From contig JAVZCK010000002.1 in NCBI GenBank assembly GCA_038874435.1, positions 62,001 to 126,000 of the forward strand: DNA of 64,000 nucleotides, in the 5' to 3' direction. Shown in pieces: positions 36,314 to 50,000 of the stretch. This stretch comes from Thermoplasmata archaeon. GTDB taxonomy: Archaea > Thermoplasmatota > Thermoplasmata > Lutacidiplasmatales > SKW197. How positions within the stretch are numbered: position 1 is the stretch's first letter; every line of letters starts with the position of its first letter. The notes under the pieces were generated by a model, which saw only the letters and a list, made by a program, of their open reading frames with translations, was not told where the DNA came from and did not search any database. The position numbers and the translations under genes are program-made.

Positions 36314-38887
36314 TTATCTTATGTGGTCCAGTGAGAAGGAACCAATGCTTATCTTGTTCTTTGAGAAGTTATACTGAATCCATGCCCTTGATTGCACATC
36401 ACAAACTCCCTTGACACTGAGATATGTCTTCAATTGTTCAAGCTTGAACTCGATTGACCCATCCATCATGTGTCCTAGCATTTGAATATCAGATTCGCTG
36501 TGCATTCCCGTTTCTATGGTGTAGAGCGCGACTGCTCTATCCCTCTTTCGCTTACCACAGAAGGGTTGCAGGAATTTGAACACGGATGCAGTATCTAGAT
36601 AGGCAATTATTGTGGAAATTGACTCAAATGTGAGACGGTAATACTTGTGTTTTTTCTTGAATTCCTTGGCTATGCTATCCACTGCCTCCGCGATTCCCTT
36701 CGTATCCGTTGGTTCATCAATGTATATGGCATTTGGGTTGTTTGTCTCCTCACCCATGCTTTTCGAGTACGCGTCTACATATTTCACAAGGCCGATTTTC
36801 TCATACTCTTCAAAACTTGGGACAATGTATCTCAATTCCTCCACGAGAGTTGGAATTGATTTATCTGTAATCACGAAGATACATGGCACACCCTTCTTTA
36901 ACCCTTCCGCCATGAATAGGTTCATAAGCACTTCCTTGCCAACATGTGGAGGTCCATTTATGAGGATATTTGAGCCAAACGGGAAGCCGCCGTAAAGCAA
37001 ATCATCCAATCTTGTCACTCCTGTCTTCACCTTTTCCTGCTTTATCTCCTGCTCTCTCTCCGCTTCTTTCATCTCAATTTCTTCAGCCACTAGGCCTCTC
37101 TCTTTAAGCCGCAGTTCCTCTGACTTCGCCTGTAGATACCTTTCCCTTGCCCTGAGTTCCTCTTCTTTCTTTGCAATCTCTGCTTCCAAGTCCTCAAGTC
37201 GACGCTTTGCTTCCAATGATTTAGTGTCCTGTATCTCTGCCCGCATTGACGCAAGTTTCTTTAGTTCTTCTTGGAGCTTTTCTTCTCTGTATCTTATGTC
37301 TTCCTCTCTTCTATTATACTCCTCTTCCTTGAAAGCCAGTGTATCTTTTAATTTCCGCATCTCCTCTTCCTTGAACCTAATTTCCTCACGTAGCCGCCCT
37401 ATCTCAGCCTCTTTCAGAGCCAGTTCTTTTTCCTTTGCAGTTAATTCCTGAATTTTCTTGTTGAGAGTTTCCTCGATTTCTGGCACCGACTTCATTCTGA
37501 GTTCAAGTGCTTCCTGCTCCAGTTTTCTTTCAATCCGCAGGTTCTGATTCTCCTGTTCAAGCTCAATAATTCTTCTCTGCAGTGCACTTTCCTTTTCTAC
37601 AAATTCCTTTTCTTTGGCTATGAGTTCCTCTTCCATTCTAGCACGAATTTCTGCAGAAGCACCGTTAGACATGGTAGTGGCTGAGGCCTCTCTTAGCTCA
37701 GCAATCGTCTTGTTAAGGGTCTCTATCTCCTTATCTTTAGCGGCAATCATGCTTTCCAGTTCCGCCACTCTCATTTCCATCTTTTTATAGGCCTGAGCAT
37801 CTTTCGGGAGTGATTGAATTCCCTTTTCTAGGGATTCCTTCAGTTTGGCAATCTCCTCCTCTCTGGTCTTAAGCACAGAAGCAATTGCTTCCTTTTCTCT
37901 CAACTCATTTTCAAGTCGTTTTTTAAGGGCATTCAGTTCTGCATCCTTTGCCTTCGCCTGCTGCGCCTTCACATACTTTATTATCGCGACCGTACCTTTT
38001 TTCACATGCTCCAGTTCTTCCTCCATTTGTTTTCGTTTCTTTACCTCTTCCTGGAGTTGTTTGCTCATCACTGCTGTTTCCTCAATGAGTTTCATTGGGT
38101 CAAATGCACCACTTCTCACTCTATCCATGTATTTCGCCATGATTTCCTTCATTGAGTCCAGCTCTGCTTTAATTTTTGCAATTTCTTCTTCCTTCTGCGT
38201 CAGCAGTTTCTCCTTTTCAGCAAGTTGCACTCCTACAGCATCAAGACCATGTGCGGAAATTTTTTCCGCGACTGCAACAGATGCCTTCTCTTCCTCTAGC
38301 CAATCACCCAGTGCGGTCTCATCGCCCTCAAGCCATTTTTTCAAACTTTCTACTTTTTTCACATTCTCCTTGTCTGAAACTTGTGTGATTAGAGGTTTAG
38401 CATCTTTTTTTGCCTCTCCAAAAACTTTTGTTTCACTTTCACCTGTGAGCCATTTCTCGAGGGCATCATCACTTTTTGTGGGTGCAGTAACTCCTCCAGT
38501 ATCTGGAATTTTTTGTTCTACAGGTGGCTTGGGTTCTAGCTCTTTTATTTTTTCAGATAATCTGGTCTTTATGGTTTTAGCTTCCTCTTTTGACAGTCCA
38601 GTAGCTACAAGCTCGTCTTCAAGGGCATCCCTCAGTTCGTCAACGGTATCAAAGCCATTCTCTACAAGCAACTCTGCTTTCATTCTGGGAAGCCCGAACA
38701 TCTCAACAAAAGTGTTTATTGCATTCTCCCTCTGCGTCTTGGGTCCAGAGGGTTTACCTGCCATACCCTTGAGGGCGGTGCCACAATTCGGGCAGGTGCT
38801 AGCGCTATCGCTAACACTTCTCCCACAAACTGGACATACTATTTTTGTGGTTTCAATTGTTCCGATGATTTTCGGTTTCTTAGTCAT
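36314..38887 (-). CDS. Zinc ribbon-long coiled coil-RecA/KaiC-like ATPase
   Basis: 857 residues. An N-terminal zinc ribbon (CPVCGRSVSDSASTCPNCG) is followed by a helix-hairpin-helix-like segment (GLPRMKAELLVENGFDTVDE). A heptad-rich coiled coil runs from about residue 190 to 610, and a C-terminal RecA/KaiC-type domain begins at GVTRLDDLLYGGFPFGSN. Its P-loop reads GPPHVGKEVLM, with Glu replacing the usual Ser/Thr after Lys, so ATP hydrolysis may be altered. Downstream, YIDEPTDTKG and FESISTIIAYLD occupy late RecA-fold strands. The architecture resembles a rod with an ATPase head, suggesting scaffolding, chromosome or signalling functions; none is established. Confidence 0.8.
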   Translation of the reverse strand: MTKKPKIIGTIETTKIVCPVCGRSVSDSASTCPNCGTALKGMAGKPSGPKTQRENAINTFVEMFGLPRMKAELLVENGFDTVDELRDALEDELVATGLSKEEAKTIKTRLSEKIKELEPKPPVEQKIPDTGGVTAPTKSDDALEKWLTGESETKVFGEAKKDAKPLITQVSDKENVKKVESLKKWLEGDETALGDWLEEEKASVAVAEKISAHGLDAVGVQLAEKEKLLTQKEEEIAKIKAELDSMKEIMAKYMDRVRSGAFDPMKLIEETAVMSKQLQEEVKKRKQMEEELEHVKKGTVAIIKYVKAQQAKAKDAELNALKKRLENELREKEAIASVLKTREEEIAKLKESLEKGIQSLPKDAQAYKKMEMRVAELESMIAAKDKEIETLNKTIAELREASATTMSNGASAEIRARMEEELIAKEKEFVEKESALQRRIIELEQENQNLRIERKLEQEALELRMKSVPEIEETLNKKIQELTAKEKELALKEAEIGRLREEIRFKEEEMRKLKDTLAFKEEEYNRREEDIRYREEKLQEELKKLASMRAEIQDTKSLEAKRRLEDLEAEIAKKEEELRARERYLQAKSEELRLKERGLVAEEIEMKEAEREQEIKQEKVKTGVTRLDDLLYGGFPFGSNILINGPPHVGKEVLMNLFMAEGLKKGVPCIFVITDKSIPTLVEELRYIVPSFEEYEKIGLVKYVDAYSKSMGEETNNPNAIYIDEPTDTKGIAEAVDSIAKEFKKKHKYYRLTFESISTIIAYLDTASVFKFLQPFCGKRKRDRAVALYTIETGMHSESDIQMLGHMMDGSIEFKLEQLKTYLSVKGVCDVQSRAWIQYNFSKNKISIGSFSLDHIR

Positions 38888-42288: not shown

Positions 42289-45201
42289 TTAAGAGCGTTT
42301 TGTTCTGGCTCTTAAAAAGAAACCGAGACAGGTAATGGCAAGCATGAAAATGGGCAGGACAGAGAGTTCGCTCACAGGTCTTTCAAGTGGATACCAGTCG
42401 CTTGCCCCAACACTGCCAGCAATGGGATAGGCATCTGCACTGCCCCAGCCATTACCATCCCAGTTACTCCAGTAGTTGCCTTCCTGAGATGTGTTGTCAT
42501 ACCAAAAGTTGCCGCTAAAATGAGCGCATGCCTGGCAATTGCCAGAAACGCCTTTGCCCGCACAATTGTTGCGAATGAAATTGTTGTGGTGGATTGTGTT
42601 GCCTGTAGAACCCCATGATATATAGAGACCATACTTTGTGTTGTAGCAAATCCAGTTATAGGTGATGTTGTTGTCGCTTGAGTGATCCAAGTAGATGCCG
42701 TAGCCGTTGCCCGAGGCGTTGTTGTTTGTGATGGTGTTGTTGCTTGATAACTCCAAGAAGATGCCGTATTGGGAGTTGCCCGAGGCATTGTTGTTTGTGA
42801 TGATGTTGTTGCTTGAGGAAGACAAGTAGATGCCGTAGCCGTTGCCCGAGGCGTTGTTGTTTGTGATGATGTTGTTGCTTGATAACTCCAAGAAGATGCC
42901 GTATTGGGAGTTGCCCGAGACATTGTTGTTTGTGATGGTGTTATACTTTGAGAACCCTAGTTGGATTGCGACACTTGCATTAGAAATAGTCAACCCTGAT
43001 ACTGTCATAGTTAAACAATTTGCAAGAATTACCTGCCCGGCATCAGATGGAACAGTTTCGCCATTGCGGTTCTTGTAGTAGTACACAGGTTTACCGTTCA
43101 CTAAATTTGTTGTGTCTATGTTATGCGTATTCCAGTGCTCTAACATATGTCCCCAAATTCCTATCCCGTTCTCCCAGAGAATGTTGTTTGTAATGATGTT
43201 GTTGCTTGAGTCCAACAAGTAGATGCCGTAGTTGGAGTTGCCCGAGGCGTTGTTGTTTGTGATGCTGTTGTTGCTTGATAACTCCAAGAAGATGCCGTAT
43301 TGGGAGTTGCCAGAGGCATTGTTGTTTGTGATGATGTTGTTGCTTGAGGAAGACAAGTAGATGCCGTAGCCGTTGCCCGAGGCATTGTTGTTTGTTATGT
43401 TGTTGTTGTCGCTTGAGGAATTCAAGTAGATGCCGTAGTTGGAATTGCCCGAGGCGTTGTTGTTTGTGATGCTGTTGTTGCTTGAGTAATACAAGCAGAT
43501 GCCGTATCTGGAGTTGCCCGAGGCGTTGTTGTTTGTGATGCTGTTGTTGCTTGAGAACCACAAGGAGATGCCTAAGGAGTTGCTCGAGGCGTTGTTGTTT
43601 GTTATGTTGTTGTTGTTGCTTGAGTAATCCAAGAAGATGCCGTCGTAGGAGTTGCCCGAGGCGTTGTTGTTTGTTATGTTGTTGTTGCTTGAGAACTCCA
43701 AGAAGATGCCTAAGGAGTTGCCCGAGGCGGTGTTGTTTGTGATGCTGTTGTTGCTTGAGTCCCAACCCAAGTAGATGCCGTACTCGGAGTTGCCCGAGGC
43801 GGTGTTGTTTGTGATGCTGTTGTTGCTTGAGTAATACAAGTAGATGCCGTATCTGGAGTTACCCGAGGCGGTGTTGTTTGTGATGCTGTTGTTGCTTGAG
43901 GAAGACAAGAGGATGCCGTAGGTGTTGCTAGAGGCGTTGTTGTTTGTCATGGTGTTGTACTGGCTACCTTTATACAAATAAATTCCCAAGTTTGAGTTGT
44001 TGCACTTGTTGGAATCCAATGTGCCATGTCTCACATTGATTAACGCAATTCCAGCACCGTAGGGAACACTGCCTGAATCTGTTGCTCCACGCACGCTGCA
44101 GTTTCTTATCACAAAATAGGCATCCGTGTTCTCAATCCAGAAGCCATACCTGCCTCCATTTGCATCAATGTCATAGCCGTCAATTATGTATGGATTTCCT
44201 TCGCTTCCATCTCCAGGCCAGCCCTCACTAGCTGCCTGGTGTGCAAAAACATAATTGCCGTTTATGTGGATTGGTGGGTGAGGTGTGCCTTTTACCTCCA
44301 TCTCCGTGCTCTTTGCTCTTGCAGTTGCGTGGCTATTCAGATAAAGTCCAGACATAGAAACTTTCGCATTTTCGCTTCGGAACGCATTATCAACCATGCC
44401 CTTGTTGCCGTTCCAGTCAATCATGTAGAAGTAAACTGCGTAACTTTCTCCAATGCCAAGCACACTTTTGGTTGCCATCGTCTCCATTTCCTTCCCGTTT
44501 GTTGCTGCAGGCACGCTATCACCAATGTTCCATGTCCATTCCTGCTGCACCACACCTGCAAAACTCAAAACACGGCTTGCCTCTATCTTTCCATTCTTGC
44601 CAACCATCTCTATTGCCCTGTCTGCACCCACTGCAAAATTAACAGATGGCTTGAATCCAGTTGTTGGGTTGTTGTCAGTGTCCACGAACACATAAGCTAC
44701 ATCTCTACCGTTTACATTCGGAATTGCAGTTTCTCGCTGAGTTGCAAAAGAAACATTGTGCTCTGATAAGGTCTCACCAGCAGGACTGCAATTGCCAGCA
44801 AGGAACCTGCCATGAACCTTCGCATAGAATGCCACATTCTTGCCTAAATCAGCAGTTGCATACTCTTCAATGTCTATGTTCTCTGGCACGCTCACATCTC
44901 TTCCCTTCGTGGTCTTTTCAACACCTTGCCAGTCCTCAAAACTACCATCTATTTTTATTGAGCTAGCATTGCCACTCTGCCATGTGAGAAACGCAACAAC
45001 GCTCAGCACCAGCATTGCAAGCACAAAAACAGCCAGAATTTTGTCATGGTTTCTGCTCTCCTTCAATTTTCTTCCAGTTCTGTGGCTATTCCCATTGGTG
45101 AAGCCATTTGTCAGCCCATTTGTAAAACCACGGGTGTTGTCTCTGCCATTTCTGAGCCCTAAACTCTTCGGAGTTTTGCTCTCCAATTTCATGAGAACCA
45201 C
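42289..45201 (-). CDS. Anchored parallel beta-helix (NosD-like) surface protein
   Basis: 970 residues. The N terminus contains the Asn-Gly repeat GFTNGLTNGFTNGN ahead of a membrane helix (ILAVFVLAMLVLSVVAFLTW). A CBM9/DOMON-like domain (IKIDGSFEDWQG onward) follows. Then come about 16 parallel-beta-helix turns of the form NNNASGNSQYGIFLELSSNN, interrupted once by an insertion (ILWENGIGIWGH to ASVAIQLGFSKYN). The C terminus is a transmembrane anchor (VLPIFMLAITCLGFFL) and basic tail. Nearly every turn carries NAS, NTAS or NNT sequons. A GTG start at 45201 fits the TATA spacing (leaderless); ATG 45192 is the alternative. Likely an S-layer or adhesive/glycan-binding protein. Confidence 0.85.
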   Translation of the reverse strand: MVLMKLESKTPKSLGLRNGRDNTRGFTNGLTNGFTNGNSHRTGRKLKESRNHDKILAVFVLAMLVLSVVAFLTWQSGNASSIKIDGSFEDWQGVEKTTKGRDVSVPENIDIEEYATADLGKNVAFYAKVHGRFLAGNCSPAGETLSEHNVSFATQRETAIPNVNGRDVAYVFVDTDNNPTTGFKPSVNFAVGADRAIEMVGKNGKIEASRVLSFAGVVQQEWTWNIGDSVPAATNGKEMETMATKSVLGIGESYAVYFYMIDWNGNKGMVDNAFRSENAKVSMSGLYLNSHATARAKSTEMEVKGTPHPPIHINGNYVFAHQAASEGWPGDGSEGNPYIIDGYDIDANGGRYGFWIENTDAYFVIRNCSVRGATDSGSVPYGAGIALINVRHGTLDSNKCNNSNLGIYLYKGSQYNTMTNNNASSNTYGILLSSSSNNSITNNTASGNSRYGIYLYYSSNNSITNNTASGNSEYGIYLGWDSSNNSITNNTASGNSLGIFLEFSSNNNITNNNASGNSYDGIFLDYSSNNNNITNNNASSNSLGISLWFSSNNSITNNNASGNSRYGICLYYSSNNSITNNNASGNSNYGIYLNSSSDNNNITNNNASGNGYGIYLSSSSNNIITNNNASGNSQYGIFLELSSNNSITNNNASGNSNYGIYLLDSSNNIITNNILWENGIGIWGHMLEHWNTHNIDTTNLVNGKPVYYYKNRNGETVPSDAGQVILANCLTMTVSGLTISNASVAIQLGFSKYNTITNNNVSGNSQYGIFLELSSNNIITNNNASGNGYGIYLSSSSNNIITNNNASGNSQYGIFLELSSNNTITNNNASGNGYGIYLDHSSDNNITYNWICYNTKYGLYISWGSTGNTIHHNNFIRNNCAGKGVSGNCQACAHFSGNFWYDNTSQEGNYWSNWDGNGWGSADAYPIAGSVGASDWYPLERPVSELSVLPIFMLAITCLGFFLRARTKRS
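42650..43960 (-). repeat. Tandem ~69-bp coding repeats of the beta-helix gene
   Basis: About fifteen units of roughly 66-72 bp share the plus-strand core GTTGTTTGTGATGNTGTTGT. Some non-adjacent units are nearly identical; for example AACTCCAAGAAGATGCCGTA recurs near 42750, 42885 and 43285. This indicates recent internal duplication or gene conversion. The array is entirely in frame with the protein repeat. Confidence 0.85.
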
Positions 45202-45295: not shown

Positions 45296-46144
45296 TCAGT
45301 GTATCTCCTTCACCGCCAGAATTTCCGTGCGGAAGCCAGAGAAGGAGGAAAGCAACACCTTCTCCTTTGCGAATGCACCTGTCTCCTCAATGTATTTTGC
45401 AAAATGTTCAATCCTGAAGGCGTCTTTCTCAGGCACCTTCACTGAAACGAAGGCAGCTCTTGCAGGGGTTGCTTCAATGTCGTTCAGTGCCTGGAGCAAA
45501 CTTGTGCCCATCCCGAGGTCTGCTCTTCCCCGGACTGGGTGTTTCTTCAACACCTCTATGCTCTTTCTGGTGAAGCCATTTACCACATGCTCAACTAGTG
45601 CATCAGCCATCTGGTTGGCTATCTTCACAACTTTCATCAACTTTTTTTCGTGAGAAAGATCGGCAATTAATTGATTATCAATGAGCCAGATGTTGCCGTC
45701 TCCCAGATACTCAATTGCTTTTTTCAAGTCGAAGTTACCTTCAAAGCAAAATGGTGCATAACCAATTACCAGCACAAGTTTATGCTCGTAAATTTCCTTC
45801 AATGCCTTTGCAATTCCCATCCCAGTTTTACCTCGAAGAGCGGTGATTACCACTATTATGTCTGGCTCGCCCACTGCCTCAGTAATCTTTTTGTAGTTGG
45901 CAATGCAAAGATGGTAAACATCCTGGCTTGTGTATTCCTCCAGGTTTCTCTCTGAAAGGTAGATTCGGTGCTGGGCTGCAGCACTAAGCAGACTTCCGCC
46001 GAGACAGAGGTTGATTGCCACTTTCTTGATTCTTGGCGTTTCTATTTTTATTTCCCTGAGCGTGTTGATGCCGGCGCCGCCGCAACCCACCACACAGATG
46101 TCAATCGGGGCAGAGCAATCATCAAACATCTTTATTACATTCAT
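45296..46144 (-). CDS. Divergent FtsZ-like protein lacking the T7 loop
   Basis: 282 residues, directly downstream of ftsZ. The first nucleotide-binding loop is kept (ICVVGCGGAGINTLRE, near residues 13-28). The tubulin signature is degraded from GGGTGTG to RGKTGMG (near residue 102), within a segment that still aligns to FtsZ (IIVVITALRGKTGMGIA versus IAFVIAGMGGGTGTGAA). The catalytic T7 loop (NxDxxD; NIDYAD in the neighbour) is absent. It may bind nucleotide but should not support canonical filament-coupled GTP hydrolysis; a regulator or partner of FtsZ is inferred. ATG 46144 is chosen because GGGGGTGGGAC precedes it, mirroring the ftsZ leader GGGGTGGGACC; ATG 46162 is possible. Confidence 0.75.
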   Translation of the reverse strand: MNVIKMFDDCSAPIDICVVGCGGAGINTLREIKIETPRIKKVAINLCLGGSLLSAAAQHRIYLSERNLEEYTSQDVYHLCIANYKKITEAVGEPDIIVVITALRGKTGMGIAKALKEIYEHKLVLVIGYAPFCFEGNFDLKKAIEYLGDGNIWLIDNQLIADLSHEKKLMKVVKIANQMADALVEHVVNGFTRKSIEVLKKHPVRGRADLGMGTSLLQALNDIEATPARAAFVSVKVPEKDAFRIEHFAKYIEETGAFAKEKVLLSSFSGFRTEILAVKEIH

Positions 46145-46170
46145 AGTCCCACCCCCGTTCATTTGACCAC

Positions 46171-47220
46171 CTACCTTGTAAGCTCTATTGTTCCAGGCAC
46201 AATCTCGTATATCCCTTCAGGTTCCAGTGGCACCAGTGATTTGACTCCAACTGCAATTGCCATCACTCTTATGCTACCTTCGAACTCTGGAAGAATCCTT
46301 GCACCGAAAATTATGTTTGCATCTTCACTAAATTGGGAAGCAATTCCTTCAATCACTGCATTGGCATTTCTCAGCGTAAGCTTGGTTCCACCAGTAATGT
46401 GAATTATTGCTGCTCTTGCACCTGTGTAATCCACATCCAGAAATGGATTGTTGAGGGCATCCTCTACAATTTTCTCTGGCTCCTCCTCAGAACCCTCGCC
46501 GTAAAGCAGGGTACTCATGTTTCCATCTGCATACGAAAAAATGGTCCGCATGTCTGCGTAATCAATGTTGATCAACGAGGGTAGCGTGAGTGTGTCAGTA
46601 ACGCCTGAAATCATTTCTGCAATCACCTGGTCCATCACACCGAAGGCATGCTCAAGCGGGAGCGTGGGTGCAATGTCCAGAAGCTTGTTGTTGTCCAGCA
46701 CGATCAGACAGTCCGAAAACCTCCGCAGGGCAGCGATTCCCTGTCTGGCTGTATGAATCCGCCCTTTTTCATACCTGAATGGAGATGTCGCTACAGAAAT
46801 CACAATCGCTCCTGCCTCCTTTGCAATCTCTGCCACAACAGGGGCTGCACCTGTGCCTGTTCCACCACCCATACCTGCAATTACGAATGCAATCTGCGTG
46901 CCTCTGAATACGGTCTCAAGTTCTCTCCTGGAAAGCTCGGCGGCATGTGCACCTATCTCAGGTAAGCCCCCAGCACCATTTCCCCTTGTGAGGTGGCCTC
47001 CCAGTAAAATCTTTTTCTTTGCATGGATTGATTTGAGATGGACATAGTCCGTGTTGATTGCGATGGAATCAATGTTCTTTACTCCGAGCTTCTGGAGGTG
47101 GTGTAAACTGTTGCATCCAGCACCGCCAACCCCAACAACTTTTATGTTCAGCTCTTGCTTTGGCAGGGGATACTCTTTTTCGAATTCTTCCGCATCTTTT
47201 ATTATGGAATTTATTGTCAT
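46171..47220 (-). CDS. ftsZ: Cell division GTPase FtsZ
   Basis: Polymerising tubulin-family GTPase of the division ring. The T1 loop VVGVGGAGCNSL lies near residue 29, the tubulin signature AGMGGGTGTGAAP near 112-124, and the T7 loop NIDYADMRTIF near 215. The C-terminal domain is complete (IIHITGGTKLTL, ANIIFGARI), but no long C-terminal tail is present: the protein ends soon after the globular domain (VPGTIELTR). All catalytic residues are intact. The preceding gene is an RHH regulator; the following one is the degenerate FtsZ paralogue, 26 bp downstream. A possible operator lies at 47240-47251, just upstream of the start. Confidence 0.96.
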   Translation of the reverse strand: MTINSIIKDAEEFEKEYPLPKQELNIKVVGVGGAGCNSLHHLQKLGVKNIDSIAINTDYVHLKSIHAKKKILLGGHLTRGNGAGGLPEIGAHAAELSRRELETVFRGTQIAFVIAGMGGGTGTGAAPVVAEIAKEAGAIVISVATSPFRYEKGRIHTARQGIAALRRFSDCLIVLDNNKLLDIAPTLPLEHAFGVMDQVIAEMISGVTDTLTLPSLINIDYADMRTIFSYADGNMSTLLYGEGSEEEPEKIVEDALNNPFLDVDYTGARAAIIHITGGTKLTLRNANAVIEGIASQFSEDANIIFGARILPEFEGSIRVMAIAVGVKSLVPLEPEGIYEIVPGTIELTR

Positions 47221-47239: not shown

Positions 47240-47251
47240 TTGTTCGGACAA
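47240..47251. promoter_or_regulatory. Candidate operator between the RHH gene and ftsZ
   Basis: TTGTTCGGACAA on the plus strand is an inverted repeat with one mismatched pair (TTGT/ACAA ends around TCGG). It lies in the short gap between the RHH stop (47257) and ftsZ ATG (47220). It shares TTGT-x-CGGACAA/TCCGACAA features with the palindrome at 47606-47618 upstream of the RHH gene. Confidence 0.5.
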
Positions 47252-47256
47252 TCTGG

Positions 47257-47595
47257 CTATTGGCTTTTTGTGATGGCGATTTCTTTTAGCTTTTTCTCCA
47301 GGTAATCTCTGATTGCATTCCTTATCGCCTCCTCGATGCTCACGGCGTCCATCCCCTCGCTTATCATCGCCTCGAGTTTCATTGCGAGGCTTTTGGGAAG
47401 TGCGAGAGTAACCACCATGATGTTTTCAGGAGGCAACTGCTTCTGGATGTAGTCATCGAGAGCACGGCGGATTACCTCTGAGAGATTTTTTTCGTTGTTC
47501 TTTTGCTGGATTTGCTCCAGTTTCTGGAGATACTCCAGAGGCAAGCGCACCGTTATTCTTGCGGTCTCTTCCGCCATCATACCACCGTCAGCCAT
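47257..47595 (-). CDS. Tandem ribbon-helix-helix transcription regulator in the ftsZ operon (CdrS-like context)
   Basis: 112 residues containing two RHH units. The first is ARITVRLPLEYLQKLEQI followed by NLSEVIRRALDDYIQK. The second is VVTLALPKSLAMKLEAM followed by SIEEAIRNAIRDYLEK. RHH proteins usually dimerise; here one chain could supply both halves. In haloarchaea a short RHH regulator (CdrS) is encoded in an operon with ftsZ2 and controls division genes, so a comparable role is inferred. ATG 47595 or ATGs at 47580/47577 (after GGTGGT) are possible starts. Palindromes flank the gene on both sides, as expected for autoregulation. Confidence 0.82.
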   Translation of the reverse strand: MADGGMMAEETARITVRLPLEYLQKLEQIQQKNNEKNLSEVIRRALDDYIQKQLPPENIMVVTLALPKSLAMKLEAMISEGMDAVSIEEAIRNAIRDYLEKKLKEIAITKSQ

Positions 47596-47605
47596 TTGCC
47601 ATTAT

Positions 47606-47618
47606 TTTGTCCGACAAA
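47606..47618. promoter_or_regulatory. Perfect palindrome at the RHH promoter (candidate autoregulatory operator)
   Basis: TTTGTCCGACAAA: TTTGTC and GACAAA are exact reverse complements around one central base. It sits about 25-30 nt downstream of the TATA centre, at the expected transcription start of the RHH-ftsZ operon. Confidence 0.55.
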
Positions 47619-47634
47619 TAGACATACACTTAGA

Positions 47635-47646
47635 AGTATATAAACC
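47635..47646 (-). promoter_or_regulatory. TATA element of the RHH-ftsZ-FtsZ-like operon
   Basis: The minus strand reads GGTTTATATACT, centred near 47640. Initiation would fall inside the palindrome at 47606-47618. Confidence 0.65.
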
Positions 47647-47940: not shown

Positions 47941-48003
47941 GTAATTGTATACATTGCCCGAGATTTAGATTTTTCTAAAGGTGCACGGCAGAATGGTGAG
48001 AAA

Positions 48004-48015
48004 GGTTATTAAAGC
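48004..48015 (+). promoter_or_regulatory. TATA-like element of the first V4R-like paralogue
   Basis: GGTTATTAAAGC, about 51 nt before ATG 48059. The same arrangement (ATTATTAAAG, about 50 nt) precedes the second paralogue, so the promoter was apparently duplicated with the gene. Confidence 0.45.
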
Positions 48016-48058
48016 AGGAAGGCGTAGAGGTTTCTATGGCTTGGACTGTGGTGAAAAA

Positions 48059-48601
48059 ATGAGTGAAATCATGGATGGCTTGTGTAGAGCTGGGATAATT
48101 CAAACTGACATGGAATATATCAAAAAGAAAAAGGGAAACGAAGGGCTGAATACATTAGATAAGGTTTTAAAGGAAATGGGAATTAATCTTACACAAATCA
48201 AGAGTATGCGTTCCCGAGACCAGGTACCACTCAGTATGCGATGTAAATTTCTGGATGCCTGTCTGAAGGTGTTTGATGGCAAGATCGAGAAAATAAGAGA
48301 GATGGGCAGAGAAGCACCTAAGGCCTCCATGCTGATAAAGATGCTGTATCCGTTTCATCTCAGTCCAAATTACGCTTTGACACATGCATCTCGCGTGTGG
48401 CGAGACCATTACTCTGTGGGAGAAATTGTAATTTTGGAAAGTGGACCAGGACATGCTCTGTTTGCCCTGAAAAATTTCAGGACAACAAAGCTAATGTGCG
48501 TTTTTCTTGCTGGTGCATTCGCAGGTGTGGGTGACCTTACTAGAGCAAAGAATCTGGTATGCACAGAGGTAAAATGTGTGCATGCGGGGCATCCTTGGTG
48601 A
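48059..48601 (+). CDS. V4R/HNOB-like sensor paralogue 1, ending at a TGA in place of a conserved Cys
   Basis: 180 residues to the TGA at 48599-48601. It is closely related to the next gene: CRAGIIQTDMEYIKKKKG, WRDHYSVGEIVILE, LKNFRTTKLMCVF, VCTEVKCVHAGHPW. After the TGA the frame continues EYSFKWDT then TGA (48626-48628), matching EFAFKWDV of paralogue 2. The first TGA therefore replaces the conserved Cys codon (TGC/TGT in the sisters) and removes nine C-terminal positions. ATG 48059 follows GTGGTGA and sits at the same promoter distance as paralogue 2. V4R-like assignment rests on the Cys-x-G-x3-C C-terminal pattern of the family. A truncated or decaying sensor is likeliest; Sec insertion is a remote alternative. 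Confidence 0.65.
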   Translation: MSEIMDGLCRAGIIQTDMEYIKKKKGNEGLNTLDKVLKEMGINLTQIKSMRSRDQVPLSMRCKFLDACLKVFDGKIEKIREMGREAPKASMLIKMLYPFHLSPNYALTHASRVWRDHYSVGEIVILESGPGHALFALKNFRTTKLMCVFLAGAFAGVGDLTRAKNLVCTEVKCVHAGHPW

Positions 48602-48628
48602 GAATACTCTTTTAAGTGGGATACATGA

Positions 48629-48635
48629 TTTTTTT
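48629..48635 (+). terminator. T-rich tract after V4R-like paralogue 1
   Basis: Seven consecutive T residues directly follow the second in-frame TGA (48626-48628), a plausible archaeal oligo-T terminator. Its position after the second TGA suggests the gene's ancestral end was there. Confidence 0.4.
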
Positions 48636-48666
48636 CCAAGCCAGGGGAGGAAGGAAAAAATAAGAA

Positions 48667-48679
48667 AAATTATTAAAGG
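48667..48679 (+). promoter_or_regulatory. TATA-like element of V4R-like paralogue 2
   Basis: AAATTATTAAAGG, about 50 nt before ATG 48723; it resembles the element of paralogue 1. Confidence 0.45.
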
Positions 48680-48722
48680 AGTGGAGATATAGGAATACTA
48701 GATACCAAAAGTTGGTGTGGAA

Positions 48723-49292
48723 ATGGTGGAAATATCAGAGGGTTGGTGTAAGGCAGGGTTATTTCATGCAAATCTGGACTATATCAAGAAGAAGAGAGGC
48801 GATGAAGGACTGCGTCAGTTAGACAAGAAGTTAGGGGAAATGGGCATCTCGCTCAGCCAGATTCGGACAATGCGAACTCATGACCATGTTCCTCTCACCG
48901 TTAGAGCAAGATTCCTAGACGCCTGTCTGGATGTTTTTGAAGGCAACATTGAAAAAATAAAGGAAATGGGAAGGGAGGCACCTCGTGTCTCTTCCCTGAT
49001 AAAAATGATTCTTCCCTACTTTCTCACAATAAACTATACCCTGAAACATGCTCCAGCACTATGGAAAGAGCACTATTCAGTTGGAGAACTCGTGGTTCTG
49101 GAGAATGAGACAGACCATGCCCGTCTTGCCTTGAAAAATTTCAGGTCAACAAAGTTGATGTGCGTTTACTTCACTGGCTACTTTGTTGGTGTGGGCGACC
49201 TTTGCAAGGCAAAGAATATGGTGTGCACTGAAGTAAAATGTGTCCATGATGGGCAGGAATGGTGCGAATTTGCTTTTAAGTGGGATGTGTAG
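48723..49292 (+). CDS. V4R/HNOB-like small sensor paralogue 2
   Basis: 189 residues, the intact middle copy of the triplet. A helical N-terminal half (CKAGLFHANLDYIKKKRG, IKEMGREAPRVSSLIKMI) is followed by a mixed alpha/beta C-terminal half ending VCTEVKCVHDGQEWCEFAFKW. The C-terminal C-x5-G-x3-C-x-F pattern recalls the 4-vinyl-reductase (V4R) domain of the HNOB superfamily, which binds small hydrophobic or heme-like ligands; this is inferred. There is no DNA-binding or output domain. ATG 48723 is preferred over 48717 for agreement with the sister genes. Confidence 0.65.
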   Translation: MVEISEGWCKAGLFHANLDYIKKKRGDEGLRQLDKKLGEMGISLSQIRTMRTHDHVPLTVRARFLDACLDVFEGNIEKIKEMGREAPRVSSLIKMILPYFLTINYTLKHAPALWKEHYSVGELVVLENETDHARLALKNFRSTKLMCVYFTGYFVGVGDLCKAKNMVCTEVKCVHDGQEWCEFAFKWDV

Positions 49293-49324
49293 GAAAACAA
49301 ACACGGAAGAACTAGTCGCACTAA

Positions 49325-49330
49325 TTTTTT
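49325..49330 (+). terminator. T-rich tract after V4R-like paralogue 2
   Basis: Six T residues 33 nt after the stop codon, in the 144-bp spacer before paralogue 3. Confidence 0.3.
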
Positions 49331-49377
49331 CCATCAGTTGAATTTACCTGAAAGAACGAAATGTCGCTAGAGAGAGT

Positions 49378-49388
49378 GTTATATACAG
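49378..49388 (+). promoter_or_regulatory. TATA element of V4R-like paralogue 3
   Basis: GTTATATACAG, about 55 nt before ATG 49437. Unlike the TTATTAAAG elements of copies 1 and 2, it is a canonical TATA box. Confidence 0.5.
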
Positions 49389-49436
49389 GGAAGAACATAA
49401 TTCCAATTGAAAATACAGCTCAGAGAGGCGGTGGCT

Positions 49437-50000
49437 ATGGAACAAGGGTATTGCAAAGCAGGTTTATTTCATGCAGATGTTGAGTACATAAAAAAGAAGA
49501 AAGGAATAGAGGGAATTGAGGCACTGGACAAAATATTGAAAACAATGGAATGCAAGGCAAGTATAAATCAGATTATGAGTATGAAACCCGCAGAAAATGT
49601 GTCCCTGGAAATTCGCAAAATGTTTCTAGATGCCTGTTTTCAAGTCCTGGATAAGGACTCAGAGAAGATAAAAGACATGGGAAGGAACTCTCCTTCCATT
49701 TCACCCATACAGAAACTCGTACTAGGTCATTTTATGTCTCCTGAAAAGGCGATTAGTTACGGTCCAAAATTCTGGCGAGAAAATTACACCAAGGGAGAGT
49801 TTGTAATTCTAGAAACAGGAAAAGATTTTTTTCGCTTTGCAGTGAAGAACTTTCAACTGAGCAAGGTCTTCTGCGATCATTTATCTGGCTACATTGAAGG
49901 GATAGGGCGCCTCTGCAAAATAAATGCTGTTACTTGTAAAGAGATAAAATGTATTTACGATGGTGCTGAGCATTGTGAGTTTGAAGTAAGAGCGGGTTAA
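49437..50000 (+). CDS. V4R/HNOB-like small sensor paralogue 3
   Basis: 187 residues. It shares YCKAGLFHADVEYIKKKKG, IKDMGRNSPSISPIQKLV, FWRENYTKGEFVILE and the Cys-rich end TCKEIKCIYDGAEHCEFEV with the other two copies, but is the most divergent. The alignment fixes its start at ATG 49437, which follows GGCGGTGG. It has an independent promoter and converges with the CitG-like gene. Function is unknown; ligand sensing is inferred from the V4R-like C terminus. Confidence 0.65.
   Translation: MEQGYCKAGLFHADVEYIKKKKGIEGIEALDKILKTMECKASINQIMSMKPAENVSLEIRKMFLDACFQVLDKDSEKIKDMGRNSPSISPIQKLVLGHFMSPEKAISYGPKFWRENYTKGEFVILETGKDFFRFAVKNFQLSKVFCDHLSGYIEGIGRLCKINAVTCKEIKCIYDGAEHCEFEVRAG

Follow-up and report, generated by a model that had tools for sequence, protein, structure and literature searches.

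The operon encoding a tandem ribbon-helix-helix (RHH) protein and FtsZ in the class Thermoplasmata is headed by a short palindromic box, (Y)GTCNGAC(R). Of 97 orthologous promoters, 95 contain its core, and these span 18 of the 20 families in the class; the same box precedes smc. We put at about 70% the probability that the RHH protein, by binding to GTCNGAC at the start site, represses the ftsZ operon to which its gene belongs, and that it also regulates smc. That this arrangement amounts to a class-wide regulon, in which a tandem-RHH repressor acts through a helically phased two-box GTCNGAC operator on both the ftsZ operon and smc, we consider slightly better than an even bet. The window, that is, the whole stretch of 64,000 nucleotides that was analysed, covers positions 62001-126000 of contig 2 (G000:C2) in a 2.16-Mb assembly, the closest relative of which is the sister genome SKW197.

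In the window, the first box (TTTGTCCGACAAA, positions 47606-47618, no strand assigned; core TGTCNGACA) is a perfect 6-1-6 palindrome that overlaps the expected transcription start of the RHH-ftsZ operon, exactly where the original prediction had placed a perfect inverted repeat. The TATA box (TTTATATAC, 47636-47644, minus strand), which is preceded by an A/G-rich, BRE-like stretch, is centred 28 bp from the centre of the palindrome, and both elements are identical in the sister genome. A bare palindrome of this kind is not significant, with 20 perfect 6-1-6 palindromes in the window against 15.6 expected, so the evidence for TTTGTCCGACAAA lies in its conservation. The exact 13-mer has no other copy in the assembly; its core, TGTCNGACA, occurs 17 times in the genome, and two of these copies are no more than 20 bp away from where the genome's two tandem-RHH/ftsZ-family operons are called to start. 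To judge by the sequence, the upstream palindrome is a genuine and apparently functional element, probably one half of a two-box operator in which two copies of (Y)GTCNGAC(R) are spaced by about 22 bp, or two helical turns. The other half, overlooked in the original prediction, would be a degenerate second site at 47587-47593 (GGCTGAC on the minus strand, GTCAGCC on the plus strand), one letter off GTCNGAC and with its centre exactly 22 bp downstream of that of the palindrome. This site is unchanged in the sister genome, and the corresponding position holds an exact GTCNGAC in nearly all relatives of family f2; given the degenerate second site of the window, family f1 may rely mainly on one site.

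The 97 promoters comprise 57 relatives from the same order, aligned by anchoring at the first RHH strand, and 40 loci in 17 additional families of the class; the counts include related, non-independent sequences, and the genomes are largely metagenome assemblies. In mononucleotide shuffles of these promoters, GTCNGAC appeared in 2.5 on average and in 8 at most. The original prediction was to stand or fall with the conservation of the palindrome at orthologous RHH-ftsZ operons, and in this respect it came through strongly, the upstream site behaving as a conserved operator. Within the order, GTCNGAC is located between the TATA box and the start codon in all families except f3, and it is also present in the 40 further loci with the exception of a single f8 locus; boxes were undetectable at the RHH gene in f3 and in part of f8. 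In family f2, the box occurs twice, at a spacing of 22 bp in most genera and of 11 bp in genus g8, and, over all 97 promoters, the distances within box pairs were 22 bp (85 pairs), 21 bp (7), 11 bp (6) and 33 bp (6). These distances are multiples of the helical turn, which points to a protein bound to one face of the DNA, and most of the 97 promoters thus show the palindromic sequence in phased copies at the regulator's own promoter, a trait of the RHH superfamily. The pattern GTCNGACN15GTCNGAC was detected in 52 of the 61 relatives, mostly directly before the RHH start and with extra matches scattered elsewhere, versus 1 of 61 for the reversed control. In most promoters, the centre of the first box is 26-31 bp from that of the TATA box, so that this box covers the expected start site.

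The two boxes could also act at the RNA level, as the arms of a leader hairpin that forms before the start codon and controls translation or decay. Pairing is always possible between two copies of a self-palindrome, and the two-site stretch folds with a median of -11.5 kcal/mol. Nevertheless, we regard this explanation as quite improbable because the box centres are non-complementary in 38 of the 91 pairs (with a wobble in 6) and the GTC and GAC letters never covary, each arm being the same palindrome. Furthermore, the 11-bp spacing leaves a loop of 4 bases, the phasing follows the turns of the DNA helix, smc promoters in the order mostly contain one exact heptad, and the leader in the window folds weakly (-6.3 kcal/mol).

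The tandem-RHH gene occupies 47257-47580 on the minus strand. The ORF finder starts it at an ATG at 47595, which overlaps the second operator site. In relatives, the protein starts at the ATG that follows; 47580 or 47577 is therefore the probable start here, and the 'MADGG' N-terminus read from 47595 is probably operator DNA. The protein matches Pfam RHH_1 (PF01402) in two stretches, at 48.6 bits against the curated cut-off of 20.5, which places it in the RHH (CopG/Arc/MetJ) superfamily and confirms the earlier description of a tandem RHH, with two units in one chain; a single-sequence AlphaFold2 model, of low confidence (pLDDT 66), likewise contains two beta-alpha-alpha units. The chain has 106-107 amino acids, and the protein has orthologues in 57 of the 61 relatives and matches in 261 of 300 genomes of the class. 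The R-x-T-x-R of the first strand is invariant in all 97 orthologues and likely provides the DNA-contact residues; the second strand is mostly K-x-[VT]-x-[ED]. A PDB search yielded no significant match, the two F-plasmid relaxosome chains of TraY-like length being matched only at E 2.9-3.7.

The second gene of the operon, ftsZ (349 aa, 46171-47220, minus strand), scores 348 bits with TIGR00065 (cut-off 295) and follows the RHH gene after 36 bp; an FtsZ-like gene is found in this place in 96 of the 97 loci. Another 8 bp on, there is a diverged ftsZ-like gene (288 aa, 45296-46162, minus strand) with weak Tubulin and TIGR00065 matches and no FtsZ_C match, which is probably the third gene of the operon. 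Just downstream, positions 42289-45201 encode a 970-aa protein with many NNSITNN-type repeats, resembling a right-handed beta-helix. On the plus strand, at 47981-50000, there are three similar consecutive ORFs, the first of which matches V4R weakly (24.1 bits, cut-off 31).

A different protein could bind the boxes, either a single-RHH paralogue encoded beside a PAC2-family gene or the second tandem RHH, with the RHH protein of the ftsZ operon being a mere target. The single-RHH gene of two genomes (G201 and G195) has TTTGTCNGACAAA-like sites at its own start, and the window genome encodes a second tandem RHH with a site, but the presence of boxes at nearly all tandem-RHH loci, together with the invariant contact residues, is the usual signature of autoregulation, and we consider this alternative rather unlikely. 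It would be partly true if the site is shared with paralogues that have R-x-T-x-R strands, as it may be.

Under the reading that we favor, the tandem-RHH protein would occupy a two-box operator laid over the transcription start and the 5' leader of its own operon, with one two-stranded beta ribbon per GTCNGAC heptad and cooperation between neighboring copies bound to one face of the helix. The bound protein would block the loading or escape of RNA polymerase by occluding the start site, and the resulting autorepression, which might depend on growth or the cell cycle, would keep the levels of FtsZ and of the regulator within a narrow range. The sign of regulation is deduced solely from the position of the boxes, downstream of the TATA box and over the start and leader, which is the usual position for archaeal repressors. 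The same position makes activation unlikely, notwithstanding the precedent of haloarchaeal CdrS, which activates ftsZ2 in Halobacterium (PMC7439475) and most sites of which in Haloferax are located 41-110 nt upstream of the start (PMC8406309).

Boxes of the same kind before smc and, in the genus of the window, before a second tandem-RHH/ftsZ-like operon would subject both cell division and chromosome segregation to one regulator and suggest that a single small protein tunes the two, with smc as its second main target. Comparison of the 17 TGTCNGACA sites of the window genome with the 13 of the sister left four conserved sites outside clear genes, namely, at the RHH-ftsZ operon, an operon on contig 13, smc, and an ORF between argF and rfcL; beyond the genes listed here, the regulon was sampled. 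The smc site of the window genome, 68 bp before the gene, consists of GACGGAC, GTCGGAC 11 bp on and ATCTGAC a further 22 bp on, and a block of about 60 bp around it is nearly unchanged in the genus, whereas the flanks have diverged. GTCNGAC precedes smc in 30 of 30 cases in the order and in 31 of 40 across the class, with boxes often paired 11 or 12 bp apart; the single exact heptad noted above is the prevalent form in the own order. Among the smc promoters across the class, four f13 genes have the box pair farther upstream, and no boxes were detectable in f4, f11, f17 and f23. In two genomes, G003 and G103, the box is missing before the RHH gene and likewise before smc.

The second operon, in which a tandem-RHH gene is followed by an ftsZ-like gene (G000:C13, approximately 38147-38581; L113, 2648-3082; also L139), carries TGTCNGACA 19 bp before the start. 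The centre base of this site differs between the two species with the palindrome kept, and its promoter contains GTCCTAY copies 10 and 21-22 bp further out, which are a possible variant operator. No TGTCNGACA precedes any of the three remaining clear ftsZ genes in the window genome. The original prediction had singled out sepF as a further gene that might carry such palindromes; no box was found there where the gene call is clear, including the sepF of this genome, with the calls being uncertain in several GC-rich relatives.

The original prediction also included a second, related palindrome in the gap between the RHH gene and ftsZ, which was taken to control ftsZ separately. There is indeed a palindrome-like 12-mer in the gap, built from the same half sequences (TTGTTCGGACAA, 47240-47251, no strand assigned), but it is imperfect, and its spacer differs (TTGT-N4-ACAA as opposed to TTGT-N3-ACAA upstream). 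In the sister gap, the palindrome is lost, with CCGTCCGATTAA in place of the TTGTCCGAACAA of the window on the coding strand, whereas the upstream site is unchanged. The 36-bp gap of the window contains no TATA box, GTCNGAC is found in only 4 of 96 RHH-ftsZ gaps (mostly in f13 and f24, where the gaps are long), and matches to TTGTCNGACAA with up to 2 mismatches occur at chance frequency, 31 in the window, the 12-mer included, versus 42 in shuffles. A separate ftsZ switch is, accordingly, highly improbable, and the internal palindrome is probably no site but a chance occurrence.

MetJ, Arc, CopG, omega and TraY are RHH repressors that recognize short palindromic boxes in phased arrays and regulate themselves, and TraY also contains two RHH units per chain. 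Unlike the archaeal operon described here, these are bacterial or plasmid systems, and no significant structural or sequence match was found between them and the tandem RHH. The analogy drawn in the original prediction, with haloarchaeal CdrS, an RHH activator encoded in the cdrS-ftsZ2 operon (PMC7439475, PMC8406309), is fair in outline: in both cases, the RHH gene directly precedes ftsZ in one operon and division genes are known or probable targets, the CdrS model matches RHH1 with an E value of 1.2e-8 in two stretches, and a symmetric DNA motif has been reported in Haloferax (PMC8406309). In other respects, the two differ: CdrS is a short single-RHH protein whereas the protein of the window has two RHH units in one chain and scores 34.8 bits with the CdrS model NF058555 (NCBIfam; cut-off 100). 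Furthermore, CdrS activates from sites mostly upstream of promoters, in contrast to the sites over the start observed here, and smc is a putative target here, unlike for CdrS. The one haloarchaeal RHH-ftsZ pair inspected, on a Salinibaculum plasmid (L312), has no GTCNGAC in the 160 nt upstream.

As cited in two papers (PMC12284271, PMC7617429), aCcr1 of Sulfolobales is an RHH cell-cycle regulator that represses cdvA and segAB, and this control of division and segregation follows the same logic as ftsZ plus smc; aCcr1 has a single RHH, the division is of the ESCRT type and the targets are not homologous. The score with the aCcr1 model NF053762 (NCBIfam) was 30.5 bits against a cut-off of 60. 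SegB of Saccharolobus, an RHH protein with a function in segregation, also binds to a pair of imperfect palindromes that precede its own operon (PMC12284271) but is partnered with a ParA ATPase rather than FtsZ. The RHH-ftsZ system works like CdrS and aCcr1 and belongs to neither family by model tests. In the open literature, with most subscription papers outside the scope of the search, we found no description of RHH control of ftsZ or smc in Thermoplasmata.

Transcriptional control of division is already known in two archaeal lineages, haloarchaea (CdrS) and Sulfolobales (aCcr1). With the boxes described here, a third large lineage gains an explicit operator code, kept across 18 families and linking ftsZ with smc through a common site. 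The boxes also suggest that coupling division to segregation by means of RHH proteins is a recurrent strategy in archaea, perhaps an ancestral one. If our reading holds, the amounts in which Thermoplasmata supply the division ring and the chromosome-condensing complex are both set by a single negative-feedback loop. The prediction is sharp in that it specifies the letters of the site, the spacing, the position in the promoter and two main targets.

Several minor sites merit mention. The fourth conserved site, TGTCAGACA, is located after a TATA box and before an acidic ORF of about 41 aa between argF and rfcL (L068/L141, G000:C21:19916). A coincidence of start codons, with ATGTCNGAC encoding Met-Ser-Asp, may account for L122/L136 and similar matches; it fails at the RHH, smc and contig-13 sites, for each of which one or both of the two species have only a closed or short reading frame. 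A GGATGGGATG(CA) element recurs after the operator in smc leaders of the class (L243-L271; in the own smc, L128, near 1510) and is also found in some RHH-ftsZ gaps. At L301 (G195:C1:521572), two GTCNGAC boxes 11 bp apart follow a TATA-like box and are themselves followed by an smc-like leader with no smc gene, with a tRNA-like sequence about 400 bp on. Finally, L302 and L305 (G201 and G195) each contain a 79-aa single-RHH gene near a PAC2-like gene, with a TTGTCNGACAAA site at the predicted start.
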